Below are positions 1-40,175 of a DNA stretch of 64,000 nt, piece after piece (positions within the stretch are counted from its first letter, which is position 1; every line of letters starts with the position of its first letter). Source of the stretch: Rathayibacter sp. VKM Ac-2754. GTDB lineage: Bacteria; Actinomycetota; Actinomycetes; Actinomycetales; Microbacteriaceae. The translations under genes were made by a program, and so were the position numbers. The DNA is taken from assembly GCF_009807095.1 (NCBI RefSeq), contig NZ_WUCC01000002.1:248001-312000 (forward strand). The letters are read 5' to 3'. The notes under the pieces were generated by a model. That model was not told the origin of the DNA. It worked only from the letters and a program-made list of their open reading frames with translations, and did no database searches.

Positions 1-1411
1 TGAAGAGCTCGCTGTTCTCGACGTCGTTGCTGCGGCAGTCGACGAGCTTCGCCGGCAGGGACGAGGACTCGAGGGCGTTCTTGCGCCGCTGCGTCTCCTT
101 GTGGGCGCGCGCCGAGATCCGCGACTTCATCTCGGCCACGAGCTTCTCGAGCAGCTGCGACATCTGTGCCTTGTCCTCGCGCTTGGTCGAGGAGAAGATC
201 GCGCCGAGGGTCGAGGTGATGGTCTGCGCGACGATCGCGCGCACGGCCGGCGTGCCGAGCACCTCCTTCGTCTGGCCCTCGAACTGCGGCTCGGGCAGGC
301 GCACGGTGAGCACCGCCGTCAGCCCCGCGAGGACGTCGTCCTTCTCGAGCTTGTCGGAGCCCACCTTGAGGCGCCGGGCGTTCGCCTCGACCTGCGAGCG
401 GAGGAGCTTCAGCAGCCCCTGCTCGAACCCCGTCTGGTGCGTGCCGCCCTTGGGCGTCGAGATGATGTTGACGAAGCTGCGCACGACGGTCTCGTAGCCG
501 GTGCCCCAGCGCAGGGCGATGTCGACCTCGCACGAGCGCTCGACCTCGGTGGGGACCATCGCACCGCCCGGAGTGAGCACGGGGACGGTCTCGGTGAAGG
601 TGCCCGTGCCGGTCAGTCGGAGGACGTCGGTCACGGCCGCGTCGGGGGCGAGGAACTCGACGAACTCCGAGATCCCGCCGTCGTAGCGGAACATCTCGGC
701 GCGACGCTCGGCCTCGCGGTCGTCGACGATGTCGATCGTCAGGCCGGGGACCAGGAAGGCGGTCTGCCGGGCGCGGGTGACGAGGTCGTCGGTCTGGAAC
801 GCCGCGCCCTTGGTGAAGATCTGCCGGTCGGCCCAGTACCGCACGCGGGTTCCGGTGACGCCCCGCTTGACCTTGCCGACGACATCGAGCTCCGACCCGT
901 TCTCGAAGGGGGTGAACGGCGCATCCGGAGTCGGCTCGCCGCCGGCGTCGGCGAAGCGGCCGGGCTCCCCGCGGTGGAACGACATCCGGTAGGTGCGGCC
1001 GTCGCGGTCGACCTCGACGTCGAGACGCTCCGACAGGGCGTTGACCACCGAGGCGCCGACACCGTGCAGACCACCCGAGGCCGCGTACGAGCCGGAGCCG
1101 AACTTGCCTCCGGCGTGCAGCTTGGTGAAGACCACCTCGACGCCGGTGAGGCCGGTCTTGGGCTCGAGGTCGACCGGGATGCCGCGCGCGCTGTCGCGGA
1201 CCTCGACGCTGTCGTCGGCGTGCAGCACGACGCTGATCTCGGAGCCGTGCCCGGCCAGCGCCTCGTCGACGGAGTTGTCGATGATCTCCCACAGGCAGTG
1301 CATCAGGCCGCGCGAGTCGGTCGAGCCGATGTACATGCCCGGACGCTTCCGGACCGCCTCGAGCCCCTCGAGGACGGAGAGGTGCCGGGCGGAGTAATCG
1401 GAGGAGGCCAT
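1..1411 (-). CDS. parE: Type IIA topoisomerase subunit B (ParE/GyrB family), C-terminal part beyond window
   Basis: ATPase subunit of a type II topoisomerase that relaxes or decatenates DNA with a GyrA/ParC partner not in this window. About 470 N-terminal residues are visible. The GHKL ATPase signature is clear: KRPGMYIG near residue 23, WEIIDNSVDEA with the catalytic Glu42 and Mg-binding Asn46, Asp73 in RDSARGIP, and the ATP-lid GGLHGVGASVVNAL near 113. The transducer domain follows, with FVNIISTPKGGTH. The gene runs off the left edge, so the TOPRIM and C-terminal parts are unseen. The start at 1411 is supported by a TAAACT hexamer 6 nt upstream (leaderless pattern). Position next to sigA favours the topoisomerase IV-like paralogue over the gyrB beside dnaA, but that is inferred from synteny. 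Confidence 0.93.
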   Translation of the reverse strand, partial: MASSDYSARHLSVLEGLEAVRKRPGMYIGSTDSRGLMHCLWEIIDNSVDEALAGHGSEISVVLHADDSVEVRDSARGIPVDLEPKTGLTGVEVVFTKLHAGGKFGSGSYAASGGLHGVGASVVNALSERLDVEVDRDGRTYRMSFHRGEPGRFADAGGEPTPDAPFTPFENGSELDVVGKVKRGVTGTRVRYWADRQIFTKGAAFQTDDLVTRARQTAFLVPGLTIDIVDDREAERRAEMFRYDGGISEFVEFLAPDAAVTDVLRLTGTGTFTETVPVLTPGGAMVPTEVERSCEVDIALRWGTGYETVVRSFVNIISTPKGGTHQTGFEQGLLKLLRSQVEANARRLKVGSDKLEKDDVLAGLTAVLTVRLPEPQFEGQTKEVLGTPAVRAIVAQTITSTLGAIFSSTKREDKAQMSQLLEKLVAEMKSRISARAHKETQRRKNALESSSLPAKLVDCRSNDVENSELF

Positions 1412-1598: not shown

Positions 1599-1832
1599 AT
1601 GTCGACCACAGCAACCCAGAACGGCGTGGACGAACTCGCTGGCGCCCACCAGCTCTCAGCCGCCGACCGCTGCGACAGCTGCGGCGCGCAGGCGTACATC
1701 CGGGTCGTCGTGAACAGCGGAGAGCTCCTCTTCTGCTCGCACCACGGCAAGAAGTACCAGGAGAAGCTCTCCAGCATCGCTCAGAGCTGGCACGACGAGT
1801 CCGCGCGGCTCTTCGAAGAGCAGCGCCCCTAG
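1599..1832 (+). CDS. Small zinc-ribbon-like protein (DUF7455-type)
   Basis: A 77-residue soluble protein. Two metal-site half motifs are visible: CDSCG (Cys25, Cys28) and FCSHHGKKY (Cys46, His48, His49), which together could hold one zinc. Small proteins of this kind, often annotated DUF7455, sit beside sigA in many actinobacteria, but I know of no assigned function. The ATG at 1599 is chosen because an AGGAG-like ribosome binding site lies 8 nt upstream. The gene is transcribed away from parE and converges on gatD. Confidence 0.8.
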   Translation: MSTTATQNGVDELAGAHQLSAADRCDSCGAQAYIRVVVNSGELLFCSHHGKKYQEKLSSIAQSWHDESARLFEEQRP

Positions 1833-1866: not shown

Positions 1867-2589
1867 CTACCGGGAGACACCGAGCCGCTTCGCGATCACT
1901 TCGCGAGCGGCTCGTGCTGTTTCATCGGCGGCACGGAGGCGATCGTCCGTCGTCGAGTACTCGAGGGAGTGACGAGCGGCGACCCTGGTGAGGATCGCAT
2001 CCGCCAGTACCGGGTTCTTCGCGAGGACGGGACCGTGCAGGTGGGTGCCGAGCAGTCCGCCGCTCAGGTACCCCTCGACGCCGCGGCCGTCTCCGACTCC
2101 GTGCAGCACCGCGCCGAGGACGTGCGCCGGGTCGATGCCGTCGACGCGTCGGACATGGTTCTCGAAGCCGACCAGTACGTCGGCTCCGGACGAGACCACG
2201 AGGTCGTCGGTCGCCCGCTCCCCCGCGACCGAGCGCCCGGGGAACACTCCGACACCGCCGACGACGCCCTCGGGTGTGGTGAACGACTCGGTGAGGAGCT
2301 GCCAGCCGGCTCCGACGGCGACGATCTCGGTCCCGTCCGCAACCCAGCCCTTCAGCACGGAGCCGATGTCGCGCAGGAGCTCCAGCACGACGGGCAGATC
2401 CTGGTCGGCGCCGGTCCCCGCGACGACGACGTCCGTGCGGGTGGTGACATCGTCGACCGAGCGGAGCGGCACGAGCTCGGCGTCGAGCCCCGCCCAGCGC
2501 GCCCGCGCCACCAGGACCCGCGCGTTGGCGGCGTCCCCGTTGCTGTCGAGGACCTCCGGCGCCAGAACGCCGATGCGGAGAGCGGTCAC
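1867..2589 (-). CDS. gatD: GatD-like glutamine amidotransferase subunit lacking the catalytic cysteine
   Basis: In characterised bacteria GatD hydrolyses glutamine and feeds ammonia to MurT, which amidates the alpha-carboxyl of D-Glu in lipid II. This 240-residue protein has the class I amidotransferase fold, seen in NGDAANARVLVARARW near residue 17, GFENH at 141, and GTHLHGPVLAKNP with His183 and His185. The nucleophile motif reads AVGAGWQLL at residues 91-99: where family members have Cys (Cys94 in S. aureus) this one has Gly93, codon GGA at 2311-2313. No cysteine occurs anywhere in the protein. His185 aligns with the catalytic His189. The GTG start at 2589 overlaps the murT stop by 4 nt, so the two are translationally coupled. 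The loss of glutaminase activity is inferred, not shown. Confidence 0.88.
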   Translation of the reverse strand: MTALRIGVLAPEVLDSNGDAANARVLVARARWAGLDAELVPLRSVDDVTTRTDVVVAGTGADQDLPVVLELLRDIGSVLKGWVADGTEIVAVGAGWQLLTESFTTPEGVVGGVGVFPGRSVAGERATDDLVVSSGADVLVGFENHVRRVDGIDPAHVLGAVLHGVGDGRGVEGYLSGGLLGTHLHGPVLAKNPVLADAILTRVAARHSLEYSTTDDRLRAADETARAAREVIAKRLGVSR

Positions 2590-3851
2590 GAGTCCTCCTC
2601 GCGGTTCGAGGCGAGCTGCAGGTGCGCACGGGTGCGGCGCATCGAGTCGGCCGAGAAGACGATGGTCTTGCGGCCGGAGGCGGGCGCGGGAAGCGCGAGG
2701 AACGTGTCCAGGGCGCGGCCGAGATCCTCGTCGACGGCGTCGATCGCGACTCCGTCATAGCGCAGCTGGAGCGCCGCCTCGTGGGCCTTCGATCCGGACA
2801 CCACGCGCACGCGTCCGAGCCTCGCCGTGTCGACGGGCCAGAAGTAGGACGGATCGCGGACGTCGGATCCGATCGCCAGCATCACCTGATCGGTGCCCTC
2901 GGGGATCTCCGCGAGGTTCAGCCGGTAGCTCGCGGGGTTCTGCACGAGCACGAACTCCACCTCCTGCCCGCGCACGGTGACGACCTCGCCGCGACCGAAC
3001 ACGGGATCGATCGACGAGAGGGCGGCGGAGGCGGTGCCGGCGTCGAAGCGCTCGCCCAGCACGGCCCGCGCGGCAGAGACGGCGGCGGCGGCGTCGACCG
3101 CGTAGTGGACACCGCGCGCGGGCAGCCGCACCGGCAGGGAAGCGCCGTCGCTCACGATCGTGGCCGCCGCACCCGACGTCGTCTCGACGACGGTGGTCGC
3201 GCGATCCGCGACCGGATCGGCGTCGGCCGCGTAGCCGAGCCCGCCCGTGGCCGCGCTGCGGACCTCGGAGGAGACTCCGTACCAGCGGACAGCGTCGGCG
3301 GGGAGCGTCGTCGCGATCTCGGCGACGTGCCGGTCGTCCGCGTTCAGGACCACCGGGCCCGTCGCCCGTGTCGCGATGGTGCTGAGCATGCGGGCGACCA
3401 TCGCCGGGTCGAAGAAGCGGTCGATCTGGTCGACCACGACGTTCGTCAGCAGCACGACCCGCGGGCTCATGCGCGGAGCGAGGCGCGCTCCGTGGCCCTC
3501 GTCCATCTCGAGGACGGCGATGTCCGCGTCGATGCGGCCGCGCAGATCCGCCCGTTCGAGGAGCGCCGAGGTCAGGCCCTGCGCGATGTTCGCGGTCGAG
3601 GGGTTCGTGAAGACGCTCAGCCCGTGCGCGCGCAGGACGGCGACGAGCATCTTGGTGGTCGTCGACTTTCCGGCCGAGCCGGTGACGACGACGAGCCCCT
3701 CCGGGAAGCCGCCGAGGACGGCGGGGAGGAACCCGGGTGCGACGCGGTTGACGACGAGCCCGGGAACGGCGGAGCCGCCGCCCGGCTTGCGCAGCCGCGC
3801 TGCGACACGGGCGGCCCTCCCCAGGAGGACCGCCGGCGCGTAGCGGATCAC
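2586..3851 (-). CDS. murT: MurT-like Mur-ligase subunit, zinc ribbon absent
   Basis: MurT is a Mur-ligase relative that phosphorylates the alpha-carboxyl of D-Glu in lipid II so that GatD-derived ammonia can amidate it. This 421-residue protein shows a Mur P-loop VTGSAGKSTTTKM (residues 56-68), a Mur central domain with TNVVVDQIDRF (136-146), and the C-terminal DUF1727 region with VQNPASYR (303-310) and VRDPSYFWPVD (331-341). Known MurT proteins carry a four-cysteine zinc ribbon around residues 200-230; here that stretch is Ala/Asp rich and the protein has no cysteine at all. The conserved DVSWIWD-type motif is altered to DPSYFWP. I use the GTG at 3851, which leaves 4 nt after the sigA stop. 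It overlaps gatD by 4 nt. Confidence 0.88.
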   Translation of the reverse strand: MIRYAPAVLLGRAARVAARLRKPGGGSAVPGLVVNRVAPGFLPAVLGGFPEGLVVVTGSAGKSTTTKMLVAVLRAHGLSVFTNPSTANIAQGLTSALLERADLRGRIDADIAVLEMDEGHGARLAPRMSPRVVLLTNVVVDQIDRFFDPAMVARMLSTIATRATGPVVLNADDRHVAEIATTLPADAVRWYGVSSEVRSAATGGLGYAADADPVADRATTVVETTSGAAATIVSDGASLPVRLPARGVHYAVDAAAAVSAARAVLGERFDAGTASAALSSIDPVFGRGEVVTVRGQEVEFVLVQNPASYRLNLAEIPEGTDQVMLAIGSDVRDPSYFWPVDTARLGRVRVVSGSKAHEAALQLRYDGVAIDAVDEDLGRALDTFLALPAPASGRKTIVFSADSMRRTRAHLQLASNREEDS

Positions 3852-3855
3852 CGGC

Positions 3856-5148
<1,293 letters not shown>

Positions 5149-5278
5149 GGCGGCACCTCTCCATCCGTTGCGTCCCGGTAGCGGACGGCGCCGAGTGAGC
5201 GTCGTCCGTCGGTGGGCATTACGAGGACCCATGTCAAGTCGGGGACGTCGCACGCCCGACGTGGGCGTGGTGCTCCTC

Positions 5279-38808: not shown

Positions 38809-40175
38809 GCGCCGAGCCAGTTCTCGTCGCGGGCGACGGTGATCGTGCGGCCGACGAGGGTGATCGATCCCGTCACGATCAGCGCGCCCTTGTCGGTGCG
38901 CGCGGCGAGGAGGCGGCCGGCCGTGAGCGCGCCGTGCGGGTCATCGGCGACGTGGACCGCCTCCTCCGGGAACACGGTGCGCGCGAGGGCCGCGAGCTCG
39001 TCGGCGGGGAGCGCCCTGTCGCTCGGCGCTGTCGTGACGATCAGCTCGTCGACGACCGGGAGCAGGGCCCGCAGGATCCCCTCCGCGTCCTTCTCGGCCA
39101 GCACGCCGACGACGGCCGTCACGCGGTCGAAGTCGAAGTAGCGGCCGAGCGCGGCGGTGAGGGAGGCGGCGCCGTGCGGGTTGTGCGCGGCGTCGACGAT
39201 CGTGCGCGGCGAGAGGCCGACGAGCTGCAGGCGTCCGGGCGAGGTGGCGGCGGCGAAGCCCTCGTCGAGCACGTCGCCGGTGAGCTGCTGCGTGCCTCCG
39301 CCCAGGAACGTCTCGACCGCGGCGACCGCGACCGCCGCGTTCTCGGCCTGGTGGTCGCCGAAGAACGGCAGCAGGAGCTGCTCGTACGAGGCGACGAGTC
39401 CGCGGACGGACACGAGCTGGCCGCCGACGGCCACGGTCATCGAGGCGACGTCGAAGTCTGCGCCCTCGAACACGATCGACGACTCGGTGACGGACGCCGC
39501 GTCGCGCAGCACCGCCTCCGCCTCGGGGGTCTGCTTCGCCGAGACGACCGAGGCCAGCGGCTTCACGATGCCGGACTTGGTGCGCGCGATCTCCTCGATC
39601 GTGGAGCCGAGGCGGTTCATGTGGTCGAGCGCGATCGGCGTGAAGACGGCGACCTGCGCGTCGGCGACGTTCGTCGAGTCCCACTCGCCGCCCATGCCGA
39701 CCTCGACGACGGCGACGTCGACCGGGGCGTCGGCGAAGGCCGCGAAGGCGAGCACGGTGATCGCCTCGAAGAACGACAGCGGCGCCTCGCCCTGCTCGGC
39801 GAGCTCTGCGTCGGTCATCCGGATGTACGGCTCGACGTCGTTCCAGTTCTCGACGAGGCTCTCGTCCGAGATCGGCTCGCCGTCGATGACGATCCGCTCG
39901 TTGAAGCGCTCGAGGTGCGGGCTGGTGAACAGCCCGACGCGCAGTCCGTGGGCGCGCAGCAGGCTCTCGATCATGCGGCTGGTCGACGTCTTGCCGTTCG
40001 TGCCGGCGATCTGGATGACCGGGTACGCGCGTTGCGGGTCGCCGAGGATCTCGACGGCGCGCCGCGTGGGAGCGAGGCGAGGGCGGACGCTCGCCTCGCC
40101 GAGGCGCTCGAGCAGGGTCGCGTAGACGGCGTCGGCCGCCTGGCGACGGCCCTCCTCGTCGAAGAGATCAGACAT
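38805..40175 (-). CDS. folC: Dihydrofolate/folylpolyglutamate synthase
   Basis: Adds glutamate to dihydropteroate or folates using ATP. It has 456 residues. The Mur-ligase-like P-loop is [18 protein letters not shown]; the omega-loop [14 protein letters not shown], the [15 protein letters not shown] block and [20 protein letters not shown] with the carbamylated-lysine region follow; [12 protein letters not shown] marks the C-terminal domain. The ATG 40175 overlaps the end of ileS by 8 nt, and the frame's earlier extension lies inside ileS. It is coupled upstream to ileS and downstream to DUF4233. Confidence 0.96.

Follow-up and report, generated by a model that had tools for sequence, protein, structure and literature searches.

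We report a MurT/GatD pair from Rathayibacter sp. VKM Ac-2754 in which the glutaminase-like subunit GatD carries glycine in place of its catalytic cysteine, encoded near one end of the window (the whole stretch of 64,000 nucleotides analysed here). The sequences compared indicate that Cys-less GatD is a family-wide subfamily of the Microbacteriaceae and no accident of one genome. We propose, with a probability of about one half, that the Cys-less MurT/GatD pair acts as an ATP-dependent amide ligase on a lipid-linked wall precursor, using as donor an amino acid, likely the D-diamino acid of type B peptidoglycan.

The window pair and its neighbours

The pair and its surroundings comprise the following features:

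1..1411, minus strand: B subunit of a gyrB/parE-like type II topoisomerase, truncated where the window ends (PF00204, PF02518)
1599..1832, plus strand: DUF7455 small protein, downstream neighbour of the pair (PF24254, 82.3 bits)
1867..2589, minus strand: gatD, Cys-less glutaminase-like subunit of 240 aa with a GTG start (open reading frame, PF07685, match to S. aureus GatD)
2035..2037, minus strand: codon of His185, equivalent of the catalytic His189 (alignment)
2215..2217, minus strand: codon of Arg125, corresponding to S. aureus Arg128, which captures glutamine (alignment; role as given in excerpts of PMC5871853 and PMC6085368)
2311..2313, minus strand: codon of Gly93, at the site of the catalytic Cys94 (alignment to S. 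aureus GatD)
2586..3851, minus strand: murT, Mur-ligase-like subunit of 421 aa with a GTG start (Pfam profiles, structure model)
3856..5253, minus strand, start codon unsettled: sigA/rpoD-like principal sigma factor, upstream neighbour of the pair (Sigma70 regions 1.2, 2, 3 and 4)

The murT gene precedes gatD, and the two share the tetranucleotide GTGA (2586-2589), in which the murT stop codon and the gatD start codon overlap. GatD was recognized as a class I GATase of the GatD/CobQ kind by profile search (PF07685, 48 bits at a cut-off of 27) and by its match to S. aureus GatD (E 2.4e-18). The MurT subunit scores 51.1 bits with Mur_ligase_M (PF08245, cut-off 24) and 24.2 bits with MurT_C (PF08353), the latter marginally below the cut-off of 25. 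The open reading frame and the alignment to S. aureus GatD confirmed what the earlier note had read at the nucleophile position: the segment AVGAGWQLL aligns to LTICGGYQFL with Gly93 on Cys94, the protein contains no cysteine at all, and His185, the GFENH motif and the coupled murT gene are kept. Arg125 is retained as well. The structure model of GatD (pLDDT 96) agrees with this fold and has its best match in S. aureus GatD (5n9m, TM 0.87), and that of MurT (pLDDT 91.5) finds S. aureus MurT as its top match by E-value (TM 0.51) and reaches TM 0.60-0.64 to streptococcal MurTs. The window MurT scores 89.3 of 800 bits on its NCBIfam equivalog, and the window GatD stays below the equivalog cut-offs (83.6 of 450 and 52.6 of 400 bits), a weak test of GatD membership.

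A sequencing error and a pseudogene or decaying gene were both ruled out. The gatD frame is intact, the gene is present in all 15 Rathayibacter genomes searched with Gly in each of the 15 copies, and pairwise dN/dS between the window gatD and 12 of 14 congeners lies at 0.15-0.38; the uniform Gly and the low dN/dS thus bear out the earlier note, which had considered a sequencing error unlikely. Profile searches of the strain's own genome returned one GatD and one MurT, and no second pair, canonical or otherwise, was found there, a search that the earlier note had suggested. The other three PF07685 matches in this genome are PurQ, PdxT and HisH.

Distribution and catalytic residues of Cys-less GatD

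For the family sample, 149 Microbacteriaceae genomes were drawn from a larger group and 110 GatD loci were read (111 alignment rows); the counts across the family include species within genera, which are related and not independent. The nucleophile residue was Gly at 68 of the 110 loci, Ala at 16, Ser at 4, Asn at 3, Thr at 2 and Cys at 17. Sorted by pair, 88 genomes carry only a Cys-less pair, 14 only a Cys pair and 3 both, while 5 hold another diverged pair with His (four genomes) or Asn (one) at the nucleophile site. GatD was missing from the main alignment in 39 of the 149 genomes. Twenty-seven of these are without MurT, meaning that search matches occur only at the level of other Mur ligases; the other 12 gave weak or partial, unclassified matches, two of which (G112 and G143) were later read as Gly. 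The operon murTgatD is stated to be universal in Actinobacteria in an excerpt of PMC6085368, and the 27 MurT-less Microbacteriaceae genomes narrow this universality.

Aligning GatD across actinobacteria, a check put forward in the earlier note, gave Cys outside the family in all 63 GatDs read from the order sample (248 genomes, with some matches unread) and in all 12 read from the phylum sample (396 genomes). Within everything sampled, Cys-less GatD is confined to the Microbacteriaceae.

The Cys-less pairs form a single clan, with FastTree support of 1.0 for the two proteins together and 0.978 for GatD. Support for this clan is also 1.0 (FastTree) in a MurT-only tree from which the odd row L114 had been removed. 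The clan has a locus of its own: sigA adjoins 93 of 98 Cys-less pairs compared with none of the 80 Cys pairs, 30 of which were read with just 1.5 kb on each side. Among 120 named sigA loci, GatD was readable in 65, with Gly in 52, Ala in 6, Asn and His in 2 each, Ser in 1 and Cys in none, the nucleophile site being uncovered in 2. Both kinds of pair occur together in five genomes (G050, G060, G113, Leifsonia aquatica DSM 20146 and the MAG G2_29), which argues that their functions differ.

Some loci deviate from this pattern. Two genomes that hold a Gly pair (G111 and G145) also contain a second Cys-less pair with Ala, located away from sigA (L045 and L085), and in the tree these second pairs join L072 at the root of the group that contains the window's pair. 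A third, very diverged class of MurT/GatD has His (L521, L522, L523, L527) or Gln (L526) at the GatD nucleophile, with the GatD motif FLFT-H/Q-NA, Ile or Leu replacing His189, and NLTRDSIKR at the MurT gate. In this class, to which the named loci L376, L416, L465 and L472 belong, sigA is adjacent wherever the locus includes it.

Residues were compared between 98 Cys-less and 80 Cys loci, with roles taken from excerpts of PMC6085368, PMC6113224, PMC5871853 and PMC3266927. In the Cys-less MurTs, Lys59 (P-loop), Asn85 (acceptor), Glu110, Glu113 and Asn132 are each present in 97 of 97 rows, Asp112 in 96 of 97, the hinge Arg304 in 98 of 98 and Asp355 (Asp349 in S. aureus) in 97 of 98, and the window MurT itself has equivalents of all of these residues. 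The ammonia half presents another picture. Cys94 is found in none of the 98 Cys-less GatDs (Gly or Ala in 89, Ser in 4, Thr in 2) and the Tyr17 plug in none of 97 (Asn in 76), while 4 of 97 retain the second oxyanion Gly. The gate Arg135 (S. pneumoniae MurT numbering) is absent from all 97 Cys-less MurTs, with Val in the window, whereas it is present in 79 of 79 partners of Cys GatDs. In addition, the MurT loop ahead of Asp349 is about 3 residues shorter, and the two Asn proposed as adenine contacts are mostly Tyr and Asp. The Arg128 equivalent is kept in 93 of 98 Cys-less GatDs, His189 in just 66 of 97. Judged by these residues, the ligase site of the Cys-less MurT is intact and the glutaminase and the ammonia gate are lost. 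The earlier note was therefore right in that the pair is not a normal glutamine-dependent amidotransferase, with Cys94, Tyr17 and Arg135 gone and the ligase half conserved. By this evidence from sequence, a glutaminase subunit has lost its chemistry family-wide, yet it is retained alongside its partner MurT.

The S. aureus variants C94S, C94A and C94G no longer show glutamine-dependent or glutaminase activity (excerpts of PMC6113224, PMC5871853 and PMC3266927), and by analogy with these mutants the glutaminase activity of the window GatD is expected to be absent. Compared with the lipid II isoglutaminyl synthase MurT/GatD, solved for S. aureus, S. pneumoniae and S. pyogenes, the window type belongs to the same two-subunit family and shares its gene order and overlap, the GatD fold and the ATP, metal and acceptor residues of MurT. 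Unlike the canonical pair, it is without catalytic Cys, Tyr plug and gate Arg, with the shortened loop and the changed adenine-side Asn residues, and the Cys-less pairs lie in a separate clan and at a separate locus. The missing CxxC (zinc-ribbon) in the MurT insert was rejected as a hallmark of the Cys-less type, 62 of 79 canonical MurTs also being without it.

The sigA slot, racemase-like genes and wall type

At the 120 named sigA loci, the slot beside sigA holds a window-like MurT in 73, an F420-ligase-like gene in 17 and a third-class pair in 4, and it is empty in 15 (Leucobacter 10, Agrococcus 2, Pseudoclavibacter 2, Amnibacterium 1). The remaining loci have another insert (2), are cut off (8) or are unclear (1), and both ligases in one locus were found in none of the 120. 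In the empty slots, the sigA match lies 53-295 bases from DUF7455 or 8-24 from parE.

The second occupant is one branch of the F420-0:gamma-glutamyl ligase family (CofE, PF01996), which forms amide bonds and is unrelated to MurT/GatD; this branch takes the slot in MurT-less genomes. PF01996 scored above its cut-off in 7 of 7 slot proteins tested, and 11 slot sequences share 56-74 % identity with a twelfth. On the CofE equivalog, the five proteins tested reach only 28-42 of 181 bits, so the substrate of the slot enzyme is probably not F420. In the 13 MurT-less genomes where this gene and the sigA pattern share a contig, the distance from the pattern to the start of the gene is 110-178 bases (12 genomes) or 1,550 bases (one genome), which places the gene in the sigA slot wherever both positions are known.

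When 80 family genomes were searched (maximum E 1e-10), the F420-ligase-like gene was found in 21 of the 27 MurT-less genomes, at E 1e-110 or better, and in none of the 14 Cys-only genomes, the 3 with both pairs or the 5 with other diverged pairs. One of 31 Cys-less-only genomes (G134) has a diverged relative (E 2e-38) on a different contig, and at slot-branch similarity the gene is present in none of 34 genomes holding a Cys-less pair. The two ligases exclude each other almost completely. An exception is provided by the g49 loci L114, L205, L206 and L524, where a very diverged MurT/GatD and an F420-ligase-like gene stand side by side; the MurT of these loci is a fourth, odd class with cysteine pairs, and the GatD has Gly. 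In genera g7, g9, g53, g70 and g77, species with either ligase occur. The sigA slot offers two concrete and testable candidates for an enzyme that attaches the type B cross-bridge and, with these five genera in which species have one or the other, a natural experiment.

An alanine-racemase-like gene adjoins 27 of 95 Cys-less pairs compared with none of 76 Cys pairs, counting only loci where the sequence read extends 1.4 kb or more beyond gatD; it was not seen at the other 68 Cys-less loci, some of which are short. Within 8 kb at the named loci, such a gene is found beside 5 of 17 F420-ligase-like genes, 16 of 73 MurTs and none of 15 empty slots. At least two PF00842 genes per genome were counted in 18 of 31 Cys-less genomes, in 3 of 3 with both pairs and in 14 of 21 with the F420-ligase-like gene, and in 0 of 5 with other diverged pairs, 1 of 14 Cys-only genomes and 2 of 6 with neither ligase. 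In Rathayibacter, each of the two genomes counted has one PF00842 gene, with none in the slot or the window. A racemase-like gene also accompanies the diverged MurT and the F420-ligase-like gene at L524 (g49), and one lies near a Cys-less GatD with Ser (L092) in a genome of 927,303 bases (G013). The racemase-like genes of the slot often come in pairs of a short frame (~240-300 aa) and a long one (~370-400 aa, with a weaker C-terminal domain match), for example at G128:C3:69744-71176, G070:C1:1758956-1760388 and G071:C3:532989-534433, and the short and long proteins might form a mixed dimer.

The Microbacteriaceae are described as having type B peptidoglycan, in which the bridge is carried by the alpha-carboxyl of D-Glu, and an amidated D-Glu is unable to carry such a bridge. 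The earlier note had suggested testing whether GatDs without Cys coincide with type B walls. Among the genomes sampled, Cys-less GatD was met only in Microbacteriaceae, in line with the note's interpretation. Subtercola, Agreia and Frondihabitans, given as type B2 in an excerpt of PMC5945732, carry the Cys-less pair (loci L415, L381, L403, L437, L446 and L430), and excerpts of PMC4156110 and PMC5945732 give type B2 with Dab or D-Orn for these three genera and for Rhodoluna. As a strict rule, the equation of Cys loss with type B is contradicted by Leucobacter. L. celer subsp. astrifaciens CBX151 (L434, G411), whose cross-link is type B according to an excerpt of PMC4804768, has one MurT, a GatD with Cys and no Cys-less pair, and all 9 Leucobacter genomes searched have a Cys pair like that of L. 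celer. The wall of Leucobacter may be assembled along a different path, or it may contain amidated stems next to bridged ones. Since this type B organism has only a Cys pair and 27 of 149 family genomes are MurT-less, the Cys-less pair can represent no more than one route among several to such a wall.

FemAB (PF02388), searched in 130 of the 149 family genomes, was found in 11 of 14 Cys-only genomes compared with 7 of 81 Cys-less-only genomes, in 5 of 27 without MurT, and in none of the 5 with other diverged pairs or the 3 with both pairs. FemAB thus tends to occur with the Cys pair in the Microbacteriaceae, as if those lineages took another bridge route. Six of the 27 MurT-less genomes are without the F420-ligase-like gene; four of them have FemAB, and G047 and G110 have neither.

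Proposed function and competing explanations

In the function that we propose, MurT would phosphorylate a carboxyl as ordinary MurT does. The D-Glu alpha-carboxyl of lipid II is the most likely one, as suggested by the conservation of the residues that serve ATP, metal and acceptor. The loss of the GatD nucleophile together with the rebuilt ammonia gate argues for an amine donor other than ammonia derived from glutamine. GatD would be a needed partner that probably helps to hold the amino acid, with the Arg128 equivalent binding its carboxylate. Most likely the donor would be an amino acid, above all the D-diamino acid at the start of the type B interpeptide bridge, which differs between lineages (D-Dab, D-Orn or D-Lys), as suggested by the racemase-like neighbours, the exchange with an F420-ligase-like gene at the same locus and the type B walls of the family. 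Acceptor, donor, the role of Arg128 and the link to the bridge are what we infer from these patterns. The earlier note had suggested that the complex joins an amino acid to the MurT acyl-phosphate; the exchange in the sigA slot with an unrelated amide ligase and the racemase-like neighbours point the same way, and its interpretation as a whole is partly supported.

A wider reading is put forward more tentatively, at slightly less than an even chance, namely that the sigA slot is where the hitherto missing enzyme for the first step of the type B bridge is encoded. The slot would be filled in at least two unrelated ways, by MurT/GatD with GatD as a scaffold holding the amino acid or by the F420-ligase-like enzyme, and racemase-like genes would often supply the D-diamino acid. 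Against the proposed bridge ligase speak L. celer, the genus of the window with its racemase-free slot, the 68 of 95 Cys-less loci at which no racemase-like gene was seen, the MurT-less genomes without F420-ligase-like gene (6 of 27) and the g49 loci. Searches of open-licence papers turned up neither a Cys-less GatD nor an enzyme attaching the type B cross-bridge to D-Glu, which is weak evidence of absence.

The pair might instead attach an amine elsewhere than in the type B bridge, to a precursor of the wall or of something else, be it a non-bridging substituent, a polyamine or an amine placed on a different acceptor carboxyl. L. celer, in print type B (PMC4804768) and without any slot ligase, would fit such a role, which draws further strength from the fact that we infer both acceptor and donor. 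However, the acceptor residue Asn85, kept in 97 of 97 rows, favours the usual acceptor, and the racemase-like neighbours of both ligases are in keeping with a D-amino acid, so that we consider a role outside the bridge unlikely, although worth keeping in mind. Amidation with free ammonia, by which the Cys-less pair would still make D-isoglutamine, appears rather improbable. Its closest parallel is the S. aureus GatD variant C94G, the identical Cys-to-Gly change, which loses glutamine-dependent activity and keeps NH3-dependent activity at pH 8.5 but not at pH 7.5, with GatD still required, as S. aureus MurT without GatD is inactive (all from excerpts of PMC3266927). The intact ligase residues of the Cys-less MurT would likewise permit such a reaction. 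That mutant, however, departs from a canonical pair by one designed substitution and has ammonia as sole donor, whereas in the window type the whole donor side is rebuilt, including the gate Arg135, the Tyr17 plug and the loop before Asp349, well beyond a mere loss of Cys. Free ammonia would also leave the exchange with the F420-ligase-like gene and the racemase-like neighbours unexplained, and the Cys pair kept besides the Cys-less one in five genomes, as well as the inability of an amidated D-Glu to bear the type B bridge, speak against it.

Two further explanations carry still less weight. Many pseudoenzymes arise by loss of a catalytic Cys, and the pair is dispensable insofar as 27 of 149 family genomes are without MurT, which would suit an enzymatically inactive complex, relic or regulator, retained for protein contacts. 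This is very improbable given that each ligase residue examined is kept in 96-98 of 97-98 rows and that dN/dS is 0.15-0.38. A glutaminase that still works with an alternative nucleophile could be imagined for the rows with Ser (4 of 98) or Thr (2 of 98), but it deserves hardly any credence: 89 of 98 rows have Gly or Ala, the S. aureus C94S, C94A and C94G variants cited above are inactive with glutamine, Tyr17 has gone along with the second oxyanion Gly, and His189 is missing in 31 of 97.

The ligase reading also invites comparison with the amino-acid-adding enzymes of the same fold. MurC, MurD, MurE and MurF and the pseudomurein peptide ligases have the Mur ligase fold in common with the window MurT, and the MurT model reaches TM 0.64-0.66 to MurF (4qf5) and to the pseudomurein ligases (6vr7, 7tzi) compared with 0.49-0.64 to solved MurTs, a difference that domain posture may explain. 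Despite this, the window MurT is clearly MurT-like in sequence. Unlike it, the amino-acid-adding Mur ligases have no GatD partner, possess a full N-terminal domain and act on soluble, nucleotide-linked precursors. A natural fusion of MurT and GatD was not found among the loci read. Elsewhere in the window, at positions 39918-40100 on the minus strand, a stretch of 63 aa weakly resembles MurT (36.5 %, E 4e-5) and may represent a different Mur ligase.
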